From NCBI GenBank assembly GCA_947475765.1, contig CANJMM010000016.1:1-40226 (forward strand): a stretch of 40,226 nt of DNA, written 5' to 3'. The stretch's first letter is position 1. Every line of letters starts with the position of its first letter. Made by a program: the position numbers and the translations under genes. This DNA comes from Legionellales bacterium. GTDB lineage: Bacteria; Pseudomonadota; Gammaproteobacteria; Berkiellales; Berkiellaceae. Below are positions 181-40,136 of this stretch, piece after piece. The notes under the pieces were generated by a model, which was given only the letters and a program-made list of their open reading frames with translations, did no database searches and was not told where the DNA came from.

Positions 181-471
181 TCAAATTAGCTCGCCCTGCT
201 CAGAAATCAGCATTTGAAAATCGGGCGTCAAACCAGCCCACTCGACTAAATCTACTCTCATCGGTAAATCTGAATTAGAAAAATCTTCTCTAAGATTTGC
301 TATTTTATCTATTGATAATAATTCTTGCCCCATAATACATAAATCCAGATCAGAATAAGGTTTAATCTGACCCTTCACGCGTGAGCCAAAAACCATCACT
401 TTTTTTTCTGGAAGATGCTTTTCTAAAATAGTGCGCACCAAAGAAAGATACGCTAATTCTAAATAAATCAT
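181..471 (-). CDS. mntA: MntA-type nucleotidyltransferase antitoxin
   Basis: This is a minimal nucleotidyltransferase of 96 residues. It carries the motif GS-X10-DXD (G29, S30, D41, D43), which binds Mg-ATP. In characterised HepT/MntA (type VII) systems the MNT protein neutralises the HEPN RNase partner by adding AMP to a tyrosine near its active site. The gene overlaps the end of the HEPN gene by four bases (ATGA), so the two are almost certainly translationally coupled, with the HEPN gene first. The length is normal for stand-alone MNT proteins. The pair also belongs to the group once annotated as HI0073/HI0074-type nucleotidyltransferase plus substrate-binding protein. Function is inferred from motifs and pairing. 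Confidence 0.88.
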   Translation of the reverse strand: MIYLELAYLSLVRTILEKHLPEKKVMVFGSRVKGQIKPYSDLDLCIMGQELLSIDKIANLREDFSNSDLPMRVDLVEWAGLTPDFQMLISEQGELI

Positions 472-875
472 CCCTTATTTATCCGTTTTTGTAATTCAGC
501 CACTAAAAATTCTGCCTCATTTAAAAAAACAGGGATAATTAAAAAAACTTCTTTCGCTTTAGATTCATTATAAGCATGACTGGTATTATTTCTAGCTTCT
601 CGAAAAGTAAACCATAATGGGACCTGCTGAATTAAACCAATTTCACCGGCTATTCTGAGTAAATCTCTAAAATTTAACTGATCTATTTTTTCAGTTATGG
701 CTGACTCTTGTTCAAGATATCTTTTAATAAATTTTATACTGAGTTCATAGCTATACTCAAATCGTTGAATACACCCATCTCTTACTTCCAAATCTTGGTT
801 GTTTTGAGCTGCACGAGCAAGGCCATTGGCTAAGCTCAGCAATGCATTTTTAAGTGGCTGAATGATTAACGTCAT
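468..875 (-). CDS. hepT: HepT-like HEPN-domain toxin (HI0074 family)
   Basis: This is an all-helical HEPN protein of 135 residues. It has the RX4HXY motif (R95, H100, Y102), the RNase active site of HepT-like toxins; the tyrosine is the residue modified by MntA in studied systems. The family is also known as the HI0074 nucleotidyltransferase substrate-binding proteins. Translation starts at 875, 16 bases after the mdh stop codon, with a purine-rich AGGTGGAG overlapping that stop. The toxin gene may therefore be co-transcribed with mdh as well as with mntA, unusual for a toxin-antitoxin pair. The motif is intact, so an active RNase is plausible, but not every HI0074-type protein is a proven toxin. 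Confidence 0.85.
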   Translation of the reverse strand: MTLIIQPLKNALLSLANGLARAAQNNQDLEVRDGCIQRFEYSYELSIKFIKRYLEQESAITEKIDQLNFRDLLRIAGEIGLIQQVPLWFTFREARNNTSHAYNESKAKEVFLIIPVFLNEAEFLVAELQKRINKG

Positions 876-7189: not shown

Positions 7190-7365
7190 AAATAGTGAAC
7201 TTTAAACCATTTTTATTAATCTATTGTTTATTCATTAATCCATTAAATTTTTATAAATTAAAAATGGTGTACTAAAGTCCAGTTAATATCTATTATCTTT
7301 AAGTGTAAAGTAAGAATTGGTAGAGAGCAAAATGGCTTTAGTCTGATAAAAGCATGTAGGTGCAC

Positions 7366-10300
7366 ATGGCCATCAAAGAAAATGAAGAAAAAGACAGGTA
7401 TGATTTTTCAAATTTAACTTTTGAAGAATTATTTAAAGTACCTGTGGTAGAAATGTCCTTTCGGGGTGAACCTCTGAGTGGCCCTGATTTTTTTGAACTG
7501 AATTGGTTCGACCTACACACCATCCCGGTGTTTTTAAGCACAGATAAAGACAAATTAACCTCTTCTGGGGCAGTGGACTCAACAGAAGACAGTTCCTTTG
7601 ATTTTTCAGGTTTAAGCTTTGAAGAATTATTAAAAGTCCCCGTTAGAGTCAGTCGCTGGCAAGATAATGACAGTGTCCCTGAGCCTGACTTAGACAATTT
7701 AAGCTTAGAAGATTTGATGCGACTACCCGTCAGAAGAACATTTGTATCTGACTTAGATCCGGATGCTTTAAAAAAACTACTAGGCGGGGAAGATTTTTTT
7801 TCGGATTTACCTGCTACTGAAAGTGGCAACAGCGGAGGTAATAGCAGTGGTTTATTTTTTCAGGAAAACTTTGGTGGAACAGGCAGCTTTTCTAATTTTT
7901 TTGTTCCAATCAATAATAATACCAACGATAACAATCAAAATAATCTAGGCAGCAGCTTTAGTCTTCCTCCCCCTATTAATACTATTCCTGTTGCCTATAA
8001 TGATGGCAATCTTCCTCTGCATAGTCCCGGTCAGTATTTTGCCATTAAAAGCTTTGGTACTGCTCCCCAAAATATAGGCAATTTATTTAATAACGATCAA
8101 CCTGGTCAAGATACCCCTATTCAAATCTATAATAGTATTAACCCTTTACCAGGGATCTTGATTCTTAATTTTCAAAATGGTGATTTTAATTACTTACCGC
8201 CTGTGGCCAATAACCCTAATCCTGGCTTACCCACTGACTATGCTTTTTTTTATAGCTTAATAGATTCAAATGGATCGCTTTCAAACTATGCTTCTGTGAG
8301 TTTACGTGTTTATGATCCACCCGTTTTGCATATTAACGATGTAAAAATCATAGAAGGATCTGCTGCACTGGCTATCTTTACGGTCATATTAACAGGAGCC
8401 ATTCCTATTCCCTTGAGCATTCATTATTCAACGAAAGATGGTACTGGCCAAGATCATCAGGCCATATCTGGAGAAGATTACAGCCCTATTTCTATGCTAT
8501 CTGGCCATTATACTTTTAATAACCTAGATCCTTCAGTCACTTCGCAACAATTTAGCTTTTCTGTGGCCATTTTAAATGACAACATCCGTGAATTGGTGCA
8601 AAATTTTCAGGTTAAGTTAAATGTTTCTGGGACCTTTGTTAATGTTTTGGCTTCTGATTTAATAGGGGAAGGGGCTATCTCTGACCCAGATAGTTTAGAG
8701 GTTAATGATATTTTGGGCGGAAAAGTCTATGAATCGGGCTTAAATAATGGCTCAAATCCAGATCTTAGTCCAGACCCTACTCCACTTGTTCAAACAGGCA
8801 ACCTATTAGCTGGCCAAAATTTTGGCCAAATCCCCTCTCCTGATAATATTGACATTTCTAGTTTAAGCTCAAGTGATCAGAGTGAAGAAGCTTTTTATAA
8901 TAGCGATACGGGTATTTGGACTTTAAGCGGAAATTATTTCAAGCTTACTGTTTATAATGCAGACAGCGATGGCCATAGTAAAGGCGATTATATTTATACG
9001 CTCACCCATCCTGTTCAAAATACGGGCAATGCCGATTTTACTCAAAGTATTCAATTTAGCCTTACCCCTATTGATCCTGGCTCAGAGGTTGATCAAGACT
9101 CACGCACCGGCACAGGGACTTTAAGCATACAAATAGTCGACGATATACCAATAGCCGAAGATAATAATACAGGCTACGCTATACAAAGCAGTAATAGCAG
9201 CCAATATTCAAGTGGCAATTTATTGTCTCTTAGCACCCAAAGTGCCGATCAATCCTTACATGTTACCTCTATCCGCTATCAAAATAACCAGGGTGTATTC
9301 ACAACAGTCTTGATACCAGAAGATGGAAACAGCGGTAGCATTTCGTCTTTTTATGGCACCATAGGCGGTACCTTAACCGTACATGCTGATGGCCAATATG
9401 CTTATGTGCCAAATGGAGAGGGCCCTGGAACCGGAAATATTCAGTTTGATTATACTATTCAAGATGCTGATGGCTCAATAAGTACCGCTTCAGTAGACAT
9501 ACAAGTTTATGCTGCCTTAATGGCCGAAAATGATATAGTGAGTGCCCAAGAGTTAGCCTTAAGTTCTAATACCCCAGTCAACGTTGCCGCTTCCAGTGGT
9601 AATCTCTTAACAAATGACAGTATTAACACAGGCCAAAAGTCTTTACTTAGCGTCAGTAGCATCGAATTTACGGTGAGTAATTTAGACCCTGATTTATCTC
9701 AAAGTTACAAAAACCAAGGGGCGAATATTATTATTACAAATGTCACAGACTCTACCGTGCAATTTCAGATCCCTGCTAATACGAATAGCACAAATCCTTT
9801 ATCTATTACCCTGCCTGATTCTGCTGAATTAAAAATAGCCTCAAATGGGCACTATGATTTTTTTCAGCCTCTAGGTGGGATAAGCCAAGATACCACTTAT
9901 GACTTTACTTATAGCATCACTGCCCAACAAGCCCTGCCCCTTCATCCAGGGGAGAATCAAGCACATTTAACCCTTACCCTAAATGACGGTGTGATTTATG
10001 CCAATCATGATCTCGTCTTCTGGCAATTACCAAAATATCATGAAGAAAGAGAAGAAAGAGGAGAAAGAGGAGAAAGAGGAGAAAGAGGAGAAAGAGGAGA
10101 AAGAGAAGATGCAGAACATAATGTGTTCGCCTCTACAAGCATTAACTTACTCACTAATGATGTGAATACTTTTGGCTCTACTCAGGCTCACCCTAACACT
10201 ATTTATATTAGCCAAATTTCATTGGATGGGGGAAATACTTTTAACAATATATCCACCAGTCCTGAACATCCCAGTACCTTTAGGTCTCTTGGTGGCGCCC

Positions 10301-10860
10301 TGATTACGGTGAATAAAAATGGCGAGTTTAGTTACGCAACCAATTTAGATGATAATGTGACTCCCCCAATATTAGAAACATTCCAATATAAAATACAAAA
10401 TAATGCGCATAGTTCATCTACAGGCGAAATTTCTGTTTCGACGTATAATGGCTGTTATTATTTTATGAACTTAAATGGCTCAGATGGATCGACTGCACTC
10501 AATGCAAGAGGCCAAGGCACAGTGATAGTGTCTGAGAGGGAAGGAAATAATACCTTTACCATTGATGCAAGTGGGGACAATAACTCAAACTCAGATCTTA
10601 TTGTCATTCAACATCTTTCAGCAGAGGATACCCTGAAATTTACCGATGTGGTTGATCAAGATAGCCTCATTGAAAGAATCATGTCTGTATCTATAGATAG
10701 CCCCTATGCTGGAGCCAATGCACAATTTATGTTGTCAAATGGCACTCAAGTGATTATAGAAAATTTTACACCGCCTACTCCGTTTAATGCCACGCCTACT
10801 TCTACTGATTTATTAAAGGCCATAGCAGAATATGCCACTATTGTGACCACTACTTCTTAA
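7366..10860 (+). CDS. Large secreted repeat protein, Calx-beta and VCBS/cadherin-like, probable type I secretion substrate
   Basis: About 1,164 residues, acidic, rich in Asn, Asp, Ser and Thr, without cleavable signal peptide. The N-terminus has four copies of a 19-residue repeat with core LS-x-EELL-x-VPV (about residues 12-31, 40-58, 78-96, 107-125). A Calx-beta-like domain follows (about 320-430), then several VCBS/cadherin-like modules with GTLTVHADGQYAY and NGHYDFFQPLGG-type strands. A Glu-Arg-Gly tandem run lies near 895-915. The C-terminus (ASGDNNSNSDLIVI, then DTLKFTDVV) resembles C-terminal regions of type I secreted adhesins, though no canonical RTX nonapeptides or transporter genes are present. 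Likely role: surface or released adhesin. ATG 7366 is preferred over GTG 7360. First gene of a five-gene operon. Confidence 0.8.
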   Translation: MAIKENEEKDRYDFSNLTFEELFKVPVVEMSFRGEPLSGPDFFELNWFDLHTIPVFLSTDKDKLTSSGAVDSTEDSSFDFSGLSFEELLKVPVRVSRWQDNDSVPEPDLDNLSLEDLMRLPVRRTFVSDLDPDALKKLLGGEDFFSDLPATESGNSGGNSSGLFFQENFGGTGSFSNFFVPINNNTNDNNQNNLGSSFSLPPPINTIPVAYNDGNLPLHSPGQYFAIKSFGTAPQNIGNLFNNDQPGQDTPIQIYNSINPLPGILILNFQNGDFNYLPPVANNPNPGLPTDYAFFYSLIDSNGSLSNYASVSLRVYDPPVLHINDVKIIEGSAALAIFTVILTGAIPIPLSIHYSTKDGTGQDHQAISGEDYSPISMLSGHYTFNNLDPSVTSQQFSFSVAILNDNIRELVQNFQVKLNVSGTFVNVLASDLIGEGAISDPDSLEVNDILGGKVYESGLNNGSNPDLSPDPTPLVQTGNLLAGQNFGQIPSPDNIDISSLSSSDQSEEAFYNSDTGIWTLSGNYFKLTVYNADSDGHSKGDYIYTLTHPVQNTGNADFTQSIQFSLTPIDPGSEVDQDSRTGTGTLSIQIVDDIPIAEDNNTGYAIQSSNSSQYSSGNLLSLSTQSADQSLHVTSIRYQNNQGVFTTVLIPEDGNSGSISSFYGTIGGTLTVHADGQYAYVPNGEGPGTGNIQFDYTIQDADGSISTASVDIQVYAALMAENDIVSAQELALSSNTPVNVAASSGNLLTNDSINTGQKSLLSVSSIEFTVSNLDPDLSQSYKNQGANIIITNVTDSTVQFQIPANTNSTNPLSITLPDSAELKIASNGHYDFFQPLGGISQDTTYDFTYSITAQQALPLHPGENQAHLTLTLNDGVIYANHDLVFWQLPKYHEEREERGERGERGERGERGEREDAEHNVFASTSINLLTNDVNTFGSTQAHPNTIYISQISLDGGNTFNNISTSPEHPSTFRSLGGALITVNKNGEFSYATNLDDNVTPPILETFQYKIQNNAHSSSTGEISVSTYNGCYYFMNLNGSDGSTALNARGQGTVIVSEREGNNTFTIDASGDNNSNSDLIVIQHLSAEDTLKFTDVVDQDSLIERIMSVSIDSPYAGANAQFMLSNGTQVIIENFTPPTPFNATPTSTDLLKAIAEYATIVTTTS
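10054..10104 (+). repeat. In-frame 9-bp tandem repeat (GAAAGAGGA)
   Basis: Five perfect GAAAGAGGA units (10054-10098) and a partial sixth encode Glu-Arg-Gly repeats inside the secreted protein, between two VCBS-like modules. The unit is a multiple of three, so slippage would change linker length without breaking the frame. Confidence 0.9.
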
Positions 10861-17178: not shown

Positions 17179-17203
17179 ATATGGTGGGCCTGCTCAGACT
17201 TGA
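17179..17203 (-). repeat. Distal attachment repeat (copy of tRNA 3' end)
   Basis: These 25 bases are identical to 19113-19137, which cover the last 23 bases of the tRNA (3' half of the T-arm, acceptor stem and CCA) plus two bases beyond. The direct repeats bound a 1.9-kb islet. A tRNA-end duplication of this length is typical of integrase-mediated insertion. Confidence 0.85.
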
Positions 17204-17255
17204 TCTTTTGCTTTGGGCGAATAATTGAAAGATTAAATATTTTATCCATAACATA

Positions 17256-17984
17256 TTACACCATAATTCTCTTTGTTGACACTTTAGCCTTAAGCTCTAC
17301 AAAAATATATAAAGTTGGCCTATCTGGTTGGCCATTCTTTTTTTCTACGAACGCTCTTTCTATTCGATTATCACTCAACCAGTTATGAAAATCATTTAAA
17401 AGCGGTCTAGTAACATATCCAATTTTTTTGCCCTGAATCAAGATCTTAATCGCATTTGGATCTATGTTATTTTCTGGTTCTGCTTCAAAAGCAACAAGAG
17501 AATCTAATGCAATTTCACCTATAGGGATTGGAGAGTGATGACGAAATCCAGTAACTTCGATCAAAAATTCATATGGCTGCTCTATCTCTTGAAAAGAAGG
17601 GATAATTGAAAATTCATCCCCTGGCAGTTTAGCACCTGAATACCCTAATAATGAAAAATCACTAATTTCTGAATTTTTAGGCAATCGGAACATTTCAAGA
17701 TACTTCCCAAAGTCTTCACGACCTCTAGGAGGAAGTCGCCGTTGAAATGCCTCTAACACTCTATTATTATGAAGTTCTATCTCTACGGAAAATGCAGGAT
17801 AACCAACAAAGCCAAATGATACAGCTTTTTTAAAATCTTCACTAGCATTCAAATATCTCAATTGAATGCCACTTTCATTCTTAATTAATTCCGCAACAAC
17901 ATAACGAAGGTGATTAGAATCATTTTCTGATTGCCAGACTAAATTTAGTTTCTTAAATTCAATAATGTGCTTAATAAAATTCAT
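17256..17984 (-). CDS. HIRAN-domain protein with HipA-N1-like N-terminus
   Basis: This is a 242-residue protein. The C-terminal part (about 138-230) fits the HIRAN domain: FLIEVTGFRHH, then FEAEPENNIDPNAIKIL (166-182) and KKIGYVTRPL (186-195). HIRAN domains bind DNA ends or single-stranded 3' ends in helicases such as HLTF. The N-terminal part (about 55-130), with FSVEIELHNNRVLEAFQRRL and FSLLGYSGAKLPGDEF, resembles the N1 subdomain of HipA, which in the split HipBST system is a separate antitoxin-like protein (HipS). That similarity is from reading and needs profile testing. The gene starts two bases after the kinase stop codon with GAGGGC upstream, so the pair is translationally coupled. 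Confidence 0.75.
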   Translation of the reverse strand: MNFIKHIIEFKKLNLVWQSENDSNHLRYVVAELIKNESGIQLRYLNASEDFKKAVSFGFVGYPAFSVEIELHNNRVLEAFQRRLPPRGREDFGKYLEMFRLPKNSEISDFSLLGYSGAKLPGDEFSIIPSFQEIEQPYEFLIEVTGFRHHSPIPIGEIALDSLVAFEAEPENNIDPNAIKILIQGKKIGYVTRPLLNDFHNWLSDNRIERAFVEKKNGQPDRPTLYIFVELKAKVSTKRIMV

Positions 17985-17986
17985 AA

Positions 17987-18958
17987 TTAAGCCCTCAATG
18001 CTAATAAAAGTTTATTTTGTCGATATAATAATAAATTGAGCATAAATTTTGCTCGAACTTCGCTTAAACGAGGTTCTATTCTAAAAGCAGACAATCGTTG
18101 CAAAATTTCTTTAATTTGGGCATCAGAAAATTGTAAACAATTTATCATTTGATCTCTGCAATATGGAAAAGCTTCAGCCATTTTTATAATCAGATTTTCA
18201 TGATTGTCTTTTTTTCTCCATTCTTGATTTAAATCCCACATAACATGAGGCTTTCCCTTTTTTACATATTTTTCAATATTAAATTTATGAAAGTCTCGCT
18301 CATATATTTCATGCCCCATACTAGTACCATTATCAAAAGCCGGAGACATCATGCTCTCAACAATTGTAGCATTAGTTTTTTCATTCCTAGAAGCTTTGTC
18401 TAAACGACCATATTTACCAACAATACCCCAGTTGCCTTGATGCCGATCTGAGTTGCCAATAAGTGCATCGAAAATTAATATTTTTGCCCATTCAATTGTC
18501 CAACATAATGGACCCCAGTTTAAGCCTTTCATGAAGTCAAAAATATCTCCAAGGTTATGTTGCAACCCTCTTTTGATATCATAATCACCAATCATTGACT
18601 GCATAACGTCACCGCCACGTATATATTCATCTTCATATTGATTATAAAACCATTCTATAACGACCCCAGAAATTTTTTCTTTACTATCGTATGCAACAAA
18701 AGCAGGGGGAACCGGAACATTAACAAGACAACCTAGCTGGTAAGCAAAAATCTCCATCCAAAACTGTTCAGGAAACACCTTCCTAGAAGTTTTAAACATA
18801 TAAAGCCATGATGGCGTACAGAAATCATATGAGGTTGTATCTGCGGGCAAAATAAAGGTCGCCTTTACACGCGCACCCTCTGGGTAAACTTCATACTCTT
18901 TCGGAAAATTAGCAATATCAATTATTTGCTCAGGCTCTTGTTCTTTTAATGTTATCAA
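17987..18958 (-). CDS. HipA-family kinase (C-terminal domain only)
   Basis: The 323-residue protein has HipA-type kinase motifs: a likely ATP-binding lysine (K56) and helix-C glutamate (E69), a catalytic loop GNSDRHQGN (168-176, D171 and N176) and a metal-binding SPAFDNGTS (205-213, D209). All residues for catalysis appear present. HipA kinases phosphorylate translation factors or aminoacyl-tRNA synthetases and can cause dormancy. Classical HipA (about 440 residues) has an N1 domain, absent here but apparently encoded by the next gene. No HipB-like DNA-binding protein is nearby. The best start is TTG at 18958, five bases after AGGGAAG; no in-frame ATG fits. Confidence 0.85.
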   Translation of the reverse strand: MITLKEQEPEQIIDIANFPKEYEVYPEGARVKATFILPADTTSYDFCTPSWLYMFKTSRKVFPEQFWMEIFAYQLGCLVNVPVPPAFVAYDSKEKISGVVIEWFYNQYEDEYIRGGDVMQSMIGDYDIKRGLQHNLGDIFDFMKGLNWGPLCWTIEWAKILIFDALIGNSDRHQGNWGIVGKYGRLDKASRNEKTNATIVESMMSPAFDNGTSMGHEIYERDFHKFNIEKYVKKGKPHVMWDLNQEWRKKDNHENLIIKMAEAFPYCRDQMINCLQFSDAQIKEILQRLSAFRIEPRLSEVRAKFMLNLLLYRQNKLLLALRA

Positions 18959-19047
18959 GTTGACTTCCCTGTAAATTGTATATCTTAGTTACCATTAGAT
19001 GATAGACAAACAAATTTGAACTTCAAATAAAAATAAATTCACCTGTT

Positions 19048-19069
19048 TATTCGACACATATTCGACATG
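19048..19069 (-). promoter_or_regulatory. Tandem 11-bp direct repeats upstream of the islet genes
   Basis: TATTCGACA occurs at 19048-19056 and again at 19059-19067, one helical turn apart, about 90 bases before the kinase start codon and 45 bases from the tRNA end. Phased direct repeats are typical of regulator or integrase arm-type sites. The binding protein is unknown. Confidence 0.45.
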
Positions 19070-19114
19070 AGAATTTATTGGATTTTTAGACTGACGCTAA
19101 GTCATTGATATATA

Positions 19115-19191
<77 letters not shown>

Positions 19192-39682: not shown

Positions 39683-39853
39683 TTATCTGTCTTTATTATG
39701 GTAATGGTCCTTCTCTGGTCTTTTCGGCATGGTTGCACAACCACCCAGTATAGTTGCAGCAACCAGTACAATCAGCCCTAGAAATCCACCATTAACAGAA
39801 AGTGCTTCTTTTTCTGATAATTCACGCATACCTGATTTATTTTTTTCTTTCAT
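39683..39853 (-). CDS. Small double-glycine-leader peptide (bacteriocin-like)
   Basis: The start at 39853 has AAGGA seven bases upstream; the longer open frame to 39994 begins with a TTG in the promoter region and is unlikely. The 56-residue peptide reads MRELSEKEALSVNGG at residues 9-23, with L(-12), S(-11), E(-8), V(-4), G(-2), G(-1), a close match to leaders cut by C39 peptidase ABC transporters. The mature part (about 33 residues) has a hydrophobic, Gly/Ala-containing helix (FLGLIVLVAATILGGC) and a charged tail (PKRPEKDHYHNKDR), compatible with a pore-forming bacteriocin. An alternative is a lipoprotein: LGGC resembles a loose lipobox. No C39 transporter is in the window. Confidence 0.7.
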   Translation of the reverse strand: MKEKNKSGMRELSEKEALSVNGGFLGLIVLVAATILGGCATMPKRPEKDHYHNKDR

Positions 39854-39979
39854 TTTTTTATCCTTAATAAAATTATTTTTTAAAAATAATAATCTTCTCC
39901 TACTTTTACCGACTACTATTTTGGATAGATGATACTCATTATTATTATTTATATCAATAATTTTTTGATTCGCTTTAGC

Positions 39980-39985
39980 ATTATA
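39980..39985 (-). promoter_or_regulatory. -10 box for the double-glycine peptide gene
   Basis: The minus strand has a perfect TATAAT here, about 125 bases before the ATG. The -35 is poor (TAGAAA, 18 bases upstream). The 39854-40020 stretch would thus be a long AT-rich leader without another gene. Confidence 0.4.
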
Positions 39986-40136
39986 CTTACCCAAAAAGTT
40001 ATCTTTCTACTTCATCTTAAAGTTTTTAGACCAAGGATTTCTACCCGCATCCGTATAGCACGGCAAATTCAGGATTGATTAAAAACATGCTAAAATTTAA
40101 GGCAATGAGCAAATACCTTTAAAAACAGGAAGTTAT

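Follow-up and report, generated by a model that had tools for sequence, protein, structure and literature searches.

The window analyzed here, a 40,226-nt stretch of a Legionellales contig (CANJMM010000016.1), carries two genes on the minus strand separated by a gap of 2 nt. The first (17987..18958, TTG start) encodes P0002, a HipI-type (PDC-M03A) serine/threonine kinase of 323 amino acids that consists of a HipA core without an N1 domain, and the second (17256..17984) encodes P0001, a HipN-type (PDC-M03B) partner of 242 amino acids in which a HipS-like half is joined to a HIRAN domain. A preliminary description of the locus had placed the kinase gene first and both genes on the minus strand, as the ORF positions bear out. 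When we compared the products of these adjacent genes with PADLOC, P0002 matched PDC-M03A (4.4e-35) and P0001 matched PDC-M03B (1.1e-27).

The pair makes up a 1.9-kb segment between a tRNA-Met(CAT) gene (19115..19191, minus strand), which serves as the insertion site and adjoins rpoD, and a repeat. One att copy lies within the 3′ end of the tRNA (19112..19139, minus strand) and the other marks the far end of the inserted segment (17179..17206, minus strand); the two are identical at 27 of 28 positions, share an exact core of 25 nt, and are spaced 1,933 nt apart. A tandem TGTCGAA motif (19050..19068, minus strand), read from the sequence, is a putative set of integrase arm sites. The closest homologous pair, found in a sister genus with 67% identity in HipN, sits at the same tRNA within an island of 10.4 kb that is bounded by 80-nt repeats (90% identity) and has, at the end away from the tRNA, a truncated integrase (Arm-DNA-bind_3, 5e-13), and a tandem TGTCG motif 3′ of the tRNA is common to both islands. 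The best reading of the window copy is an island of this type that has been reduced to two genes and has no integrase of its own. In another genome of the family, the same tRNA is followed by a SocA/Panacea antitoxin and an Mrr-like nuclease. The tRNA-Met(CAT) gene 3′ of rpoD thus looks like an insertion hotspot in the family, with loci (window 17179-19191, L020 559-11041, and L025) that hold the pair in two genera and the SocA/Panacea antitoxin with the Mrr-like nuclease in a third. We sought att repeats at the other tRNA-linked copies of the pair and did not find them.

Elsewhere in the window, we noted a second toxin-antitoxin-like pair (181-875, minus strand) composed of a nucleotidyltransferase (PF18765) and a PF08780 substrate-binding partner that overlap by 4 nt. 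In a small ORF (39683-39994, minus strand), a stretch resembling a double-glycine leader, MRELSEKEALSVNGG, comes before a hydrophobic segment and a lipobox-like cysteine, and from these motifs the ORF product is possibly a secreted peptide. The 1166-aa product of 7360-10860 (plus strand), which has Ig/cadherin/Calx-beta-like matches and contains an internal repeat close to its beginning, is probably a surface or secreted protein.

At its TTG start, P0002 aligns from the same residue as its homologue in genome G005. The Pfam model HipA_C fell under its cutoff in P0002 (22.3 vs. 30.5 bits) and exceeded it in two relatives (7e-8 and 3e-14). Across 20 members of the kinase family, G28, K32, K56, E69, D164, D171, R172, H173, N176, W177, and D209 were invariant, including residues of the Gly-rich-loop motif GARVK (residues 28-32, 18863..18877, minus strand; G28 and K32), the catalytic loop GNSDRHQGNW (residues 168-177, 18428..18457, minus strand; D171, R172, H173, N176, and W177), and the metal-binding motif SPAFDNGTS (residues 205-213, 18320..18346, minus strand; D209). 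A profile of the family matched CtkA (4.7e-26), Legionella HipT (3.4e-9), and a HipA-family toxin (2e-4), with the HipA and HipT matches confined to the core kinase part. Since these residues are invariant and the matches do not extend beyond the core, we conclude that the catalytic set of P0002 is complete and that N1 is missing.

We modeled P0001 with AlphaFold2, using 31 homologues (mean pLDDT 94.9, pTM 0.89), and compared the model with the PDB in Foldseek. The N-terminal half, a HipS/HipA-N1-like domain spanning residues about 1-131 (17592..17984, minus strand), matched HipS of E. coli HipBST (7ab3_E; probability 1.00, TM [target] 0.75) and the N-terminal domain of HipA (7czo; probability 1.00, TM [target] 0.62), and the C-terminal half matched the HIRAN domain of human HLTF, including DNA-bound entries (probability 1.00, TM [target] ~0.6). 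Pfam also placed HIRAN over its cutoff (9.6e-6) at residues 140-217 (17334..17567, minus strand), and we regard the HIRAN fold of P0001 as real. Couple_hipA, the HipA N1 model, scored over its cutoff in a fused homologue (7e-6) and slightly under it in two other homologues. A sequence-profile search with the N1-like part of P0001 matched no HipS or HipA chain in the PDB; the link to those chains is visible only by comparison of the predicted fold. Pfam, PADLOC, the invariant residues, and Foldseek agree on the split design set out in the preliminary description, a kinase without N1 plus an N1-like/HIRAN partner. Three results had been named beforehand as ones that could overturn that description, namely a lack of N1 similarity, a C-terminal part without the HIRAN fold, and rare co-occurrence of the genes; Foldseek, Pfam, and the pairing counts given below all came out in its favor.

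HipT is neutralized by HipS in vivo (PMC6581861, PMC10627512), and HipS blocks the kinase through Trp65, with Glu63 adjacent (PMC10627512). By a loop equivalence judged by eye, the Glu63/Trp65 loop is absent from most HipN proteins, which have RLPP(R/K)xR or a similar sequence instead; at this position, again equated by eye, P0001 reads FQRRLPPRGREDF, a basic stretch with R83 and R89 invariant. Because the loop is replaced in most HipN proteins, any inhibition must differ in detail from that exerted by HipS. In the HIRAN half, an alignment read by eye equates N91 of HLTF with N172 of P0001, which is conserved, and the base-stacking Y72 and Y93 with H149 and I174. In HLTF, these two tyrosines border a pocket that holds exactly one dinucleotide (PMC4666394).

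The design of the window pair, which is that of hipIN/PDC-M03, is genuine, and the architecture is not new. It was catalogued in 2021 by Gerdes, Baerentsen and Brodersen (mBio), who named the operon hipIN for a HipI kinase and HipN and already proposed abortive infection triggered by DNA ends or phage (PMC8262856). The window pair is like hipIN in its bicistronic order, with a kinase lacking N1 encoded first, in its HipS-like and HIRAN partner, and in the absence of HipB; nothing essential differs, and the setting of the window copy is the tRNA-Met island remnant. Likewise, both components matched PDC-M03, which has candidate status only among the defense systems of PADLOC-DB, and we found no difference from it. 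The statement in the preliminary description that no system with this architecture has been characterized stands experimentally, as far as the searchable literature goes, and falls for the architecture, which had been published as hipIN and listed as PDC-M03. In that literature, which excludes preprints and most subscription papers, we found no measurements of toxicity, binding, or effects on phage for hipIN/PDC-M03 members.

HipBST resembles the window pair in that a separate N1-like protein (HipS) is paired with a core kinase (HipT). The window pair differs in its gene order, its added HIRAN domain, the RLPP(R/K)xR sequence in place of the Trp65/Glu63 loop, and its lack of HipB, since no third gene encoding this HTH protein lies inside the att-flanked segment; the comparison with HipBST, the reversed order, and the missing HipB-like gene are all as first described. 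HipAD (DS-6; PMC13092281), which has been validated in phage defense, also combines a HipA-family kinase with a non-HipB partner, but that partner contains DUF3037 and DUF1829 rather than HipS-HIRAN. HipL has the same three domains, kinase-HipS-HIRAN, in one gene, whereas the window has two.

Such a single-chain protein, 547 aa long, is carried by P2-like prophages of E. coli (L001 4492-6696, L144 3356-5560, L140, and L143). We found it in 61 of 5,426 complete E. coli genomes and in E. coli phage 899. The predicted fold of this natural fusion reached a pTM of 0.53, from a shallow alignment in which the kinase rows were truncated. The fusion adjoins an Rv2179c-like DEDD 3′-5′ exonuclease, which is a weak candidate for a functional partner: each gene occurs in 61 genomes at identities of at least 99%, so that this is one lineage, and the link is further weakened by the abundance of this exonuclease family in phages (648 records). 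As a separate observation, in genome G706 (L083 148-2740), the partner of a HipA-like kinase is 573 aa long and has a HipN-like start, followed by repeated HTH-like segments and no obvious HIRAN domain.

A single-protein search of genome contigs returned a match only in the query's own genome. P0001 had no matches among plasmids, and P0002 had none among viral contigs. Among 369 genomes of the class, 14 contained a full-length HipN, and the kinase lay directly upstream in 13 of these (split into two ORFs in one of the 13). The same was true of 9 of the 11 testable HipN copies in the phylum sample, so that with both samples taken together, the kinase adjoins its partner in 22 of 25 testable full-length cases. 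Seen from the other side, all 11 strong kinase matches (E < 1e-30) in 339 class genomes adjoin a HipN. HipN is intact where the kinase is absent (G451 and G192), reduced to a remnant (G499), or split between ORFs (G069 and G518), and on an Oscillatoria plasmid (L105 2107-3520), where the kinase gene is apparently interrupted by a transposase-like ORF. Faulty assembly of draft genomes may account for some of the splits. The reverse case, an intact kinase without a partner, did not occur among the 11 strong kinase matches. Loss of the kinase with retention of the partner would be the pattern expected of a toxin and its antitoxin.

The computations show the architectures of both proteins, their conserved pairing, the settings in mobile elements and restriction operons, and the loss of kinases beside retained partners. 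From these we infer kinase inhibition, a DNA-end trigger, a phosphorylation target, and a role in defense, and we think it probable, though well short of certain, that hipIN is a toxin-antitoxin-like module in which restraint by HipN is lifted by DNA ends, with growth arrest and abortive infection as the outcome. The kinase would likely be the toxin, held inactive by HipN through its HipS-like half, a role that is well founded by homology. The signal would be free DNA ends or 3′ single strands, engaged by the HIRAN domain when a phage replicates, when phage DNA is restricted, or when DNA is damaged; such sensing is plausible from the modeled fold, but the residues aligned with the stacking tyrosines of HLTF are His and Ile here. 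This engagement would lift the restraint, and the kinase would then phosphorylate an essential component, by analogy with HipA and HipT a tRNA synthetase, stopping growth and so aborting the infection. Besides these tyrosines and the replaced HipS loop, two observations count against this reading: many relatives lie among ordinary chromosomal genes, and the window copy has no known defense gene beside it.

In Vibrio cyclitrophicus, 14-kb Vinavirales prophages carry the kinase-HipN pair next to an integrase (L103 10953-12646 and L104 2030-3744), and a relative in a C. difficile phage also adjoins an integrase. The presence of the pair in prophages and on plasmids, the att-flanked position of the window copy, and the decay of the kinase with its partner kept could also reflect selfish stabilization, with a toxin-antitoxin pair preventing the loss of islands, prophages, and plasmids without dedicated phage sensing. 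We consider this unlikely, as addiction does not need a HIRAN domain and the recurrence of the pair in operons that restrict DNA suggests a trigger linked to DNA.

The pair lies within or next to a type I restriction-modification operon in G244, in G034, and on a Rhodococcus plasmid. In G401, G468, and G518, it stands between an SNF2 helicase with a DpdE/DrmD-like helicase and a DrmMI-like methylase; this conserved operon, in the order SNF2 helicase, DpdE/DrmD-like helicase, kinase, HipN, and DrmMI/type IIG-like methylase (L159, L167, and L164), is 63-83% identical across three genomes. These six loci within or beside type I and DISARM/Dpd-like operons would suit a guard of the restriction system, which would stay silent as long as the neighboring enzyme works and become active once a phage inhibits that enzyme, and PrrC beside EcoprrI provides a precedent. 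Such a role is rather improbable for the family, since a restriction-modification operon is missing beside most copies, among them the window copy, the prophage copies, and the E. coli fusion. Outside the six loci, the neighboring genes are mixed or ordinary.

It is quite improbable that HipN is instead a targeting subunit that recruits the kinase, in its active state, to DNA ends or forks, where repair or replication proteins would be phosphorylated. HLTF does require its HIRAN domain for fork binding (PMC4666394), the Trp65 loop of HipS is not conserved in HipN, and single-chain fusions exist; against this, the fold of HipN matches the HipS antitoxin, and the kinase is lost while the partner is kept, as expected of a toxin and antitoxin.

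One HipN homologue departs from the usual pairing. In genome G003 (L005 582-2244, with HipN at 1465-2244; also L027 3087-4749), the gene 1 nt ahead of a HipN (HIRAN 4.5e-12) encodes not the kinase but a PIN-like protein of 293 aa. Its PIN-like motifs (LDTCFLN, YELA, DGLIMIEYA, and SQDKN) were read by eye; Pfam gave no match for the protein, and no relatives were found in plasmids, viral contigs, or 398 genomes of the phylum. A toxin swap is possible from these motifs in one draft genome. Because this HipN adjoins a PIN-like protein and not a kinase, HipN might be a general, swappable antitoxin-sensor; its HIRAN pocket, in turn, might read 3′-terminal dinucleotides or free deoxydinucleotides. 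We regard this proposal as a long shot. The HLTF pocket fits exactly one dinucleotide (PMC4666394), and deoxydinucleotide-specific nucleases adjoin hipIN in Gram-positive bacteria (2025, PMC11706625), so that such a nuclease could erase the signal. Least probable of all is a nonfunctional, decaying window copy, as might be suggested by the TTG start and by an island that retains two genes and no integrase; against this, both ORFs are intact, all catalytic residues are present, and identity to an unbroken pair from another genus is 61-67%.

To what was known of hipIN, our analysis adds the island remnant, the sister-genus island at the same tRNA, and the contexts of the relatives. Some copies lie inside restriction operons, and restriction yields the kind of ends that would be sensed by the HIRAN domain of a toxin-antitoxin-like hipIN. 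With the single-chain version present in 61 E. coli genomes, E. coli phages and tools are directly applicable. We conclude that hipIN is a widespread candidate immune module in which a Hip kinase would be coupled directly to a sensor of DNA ends.
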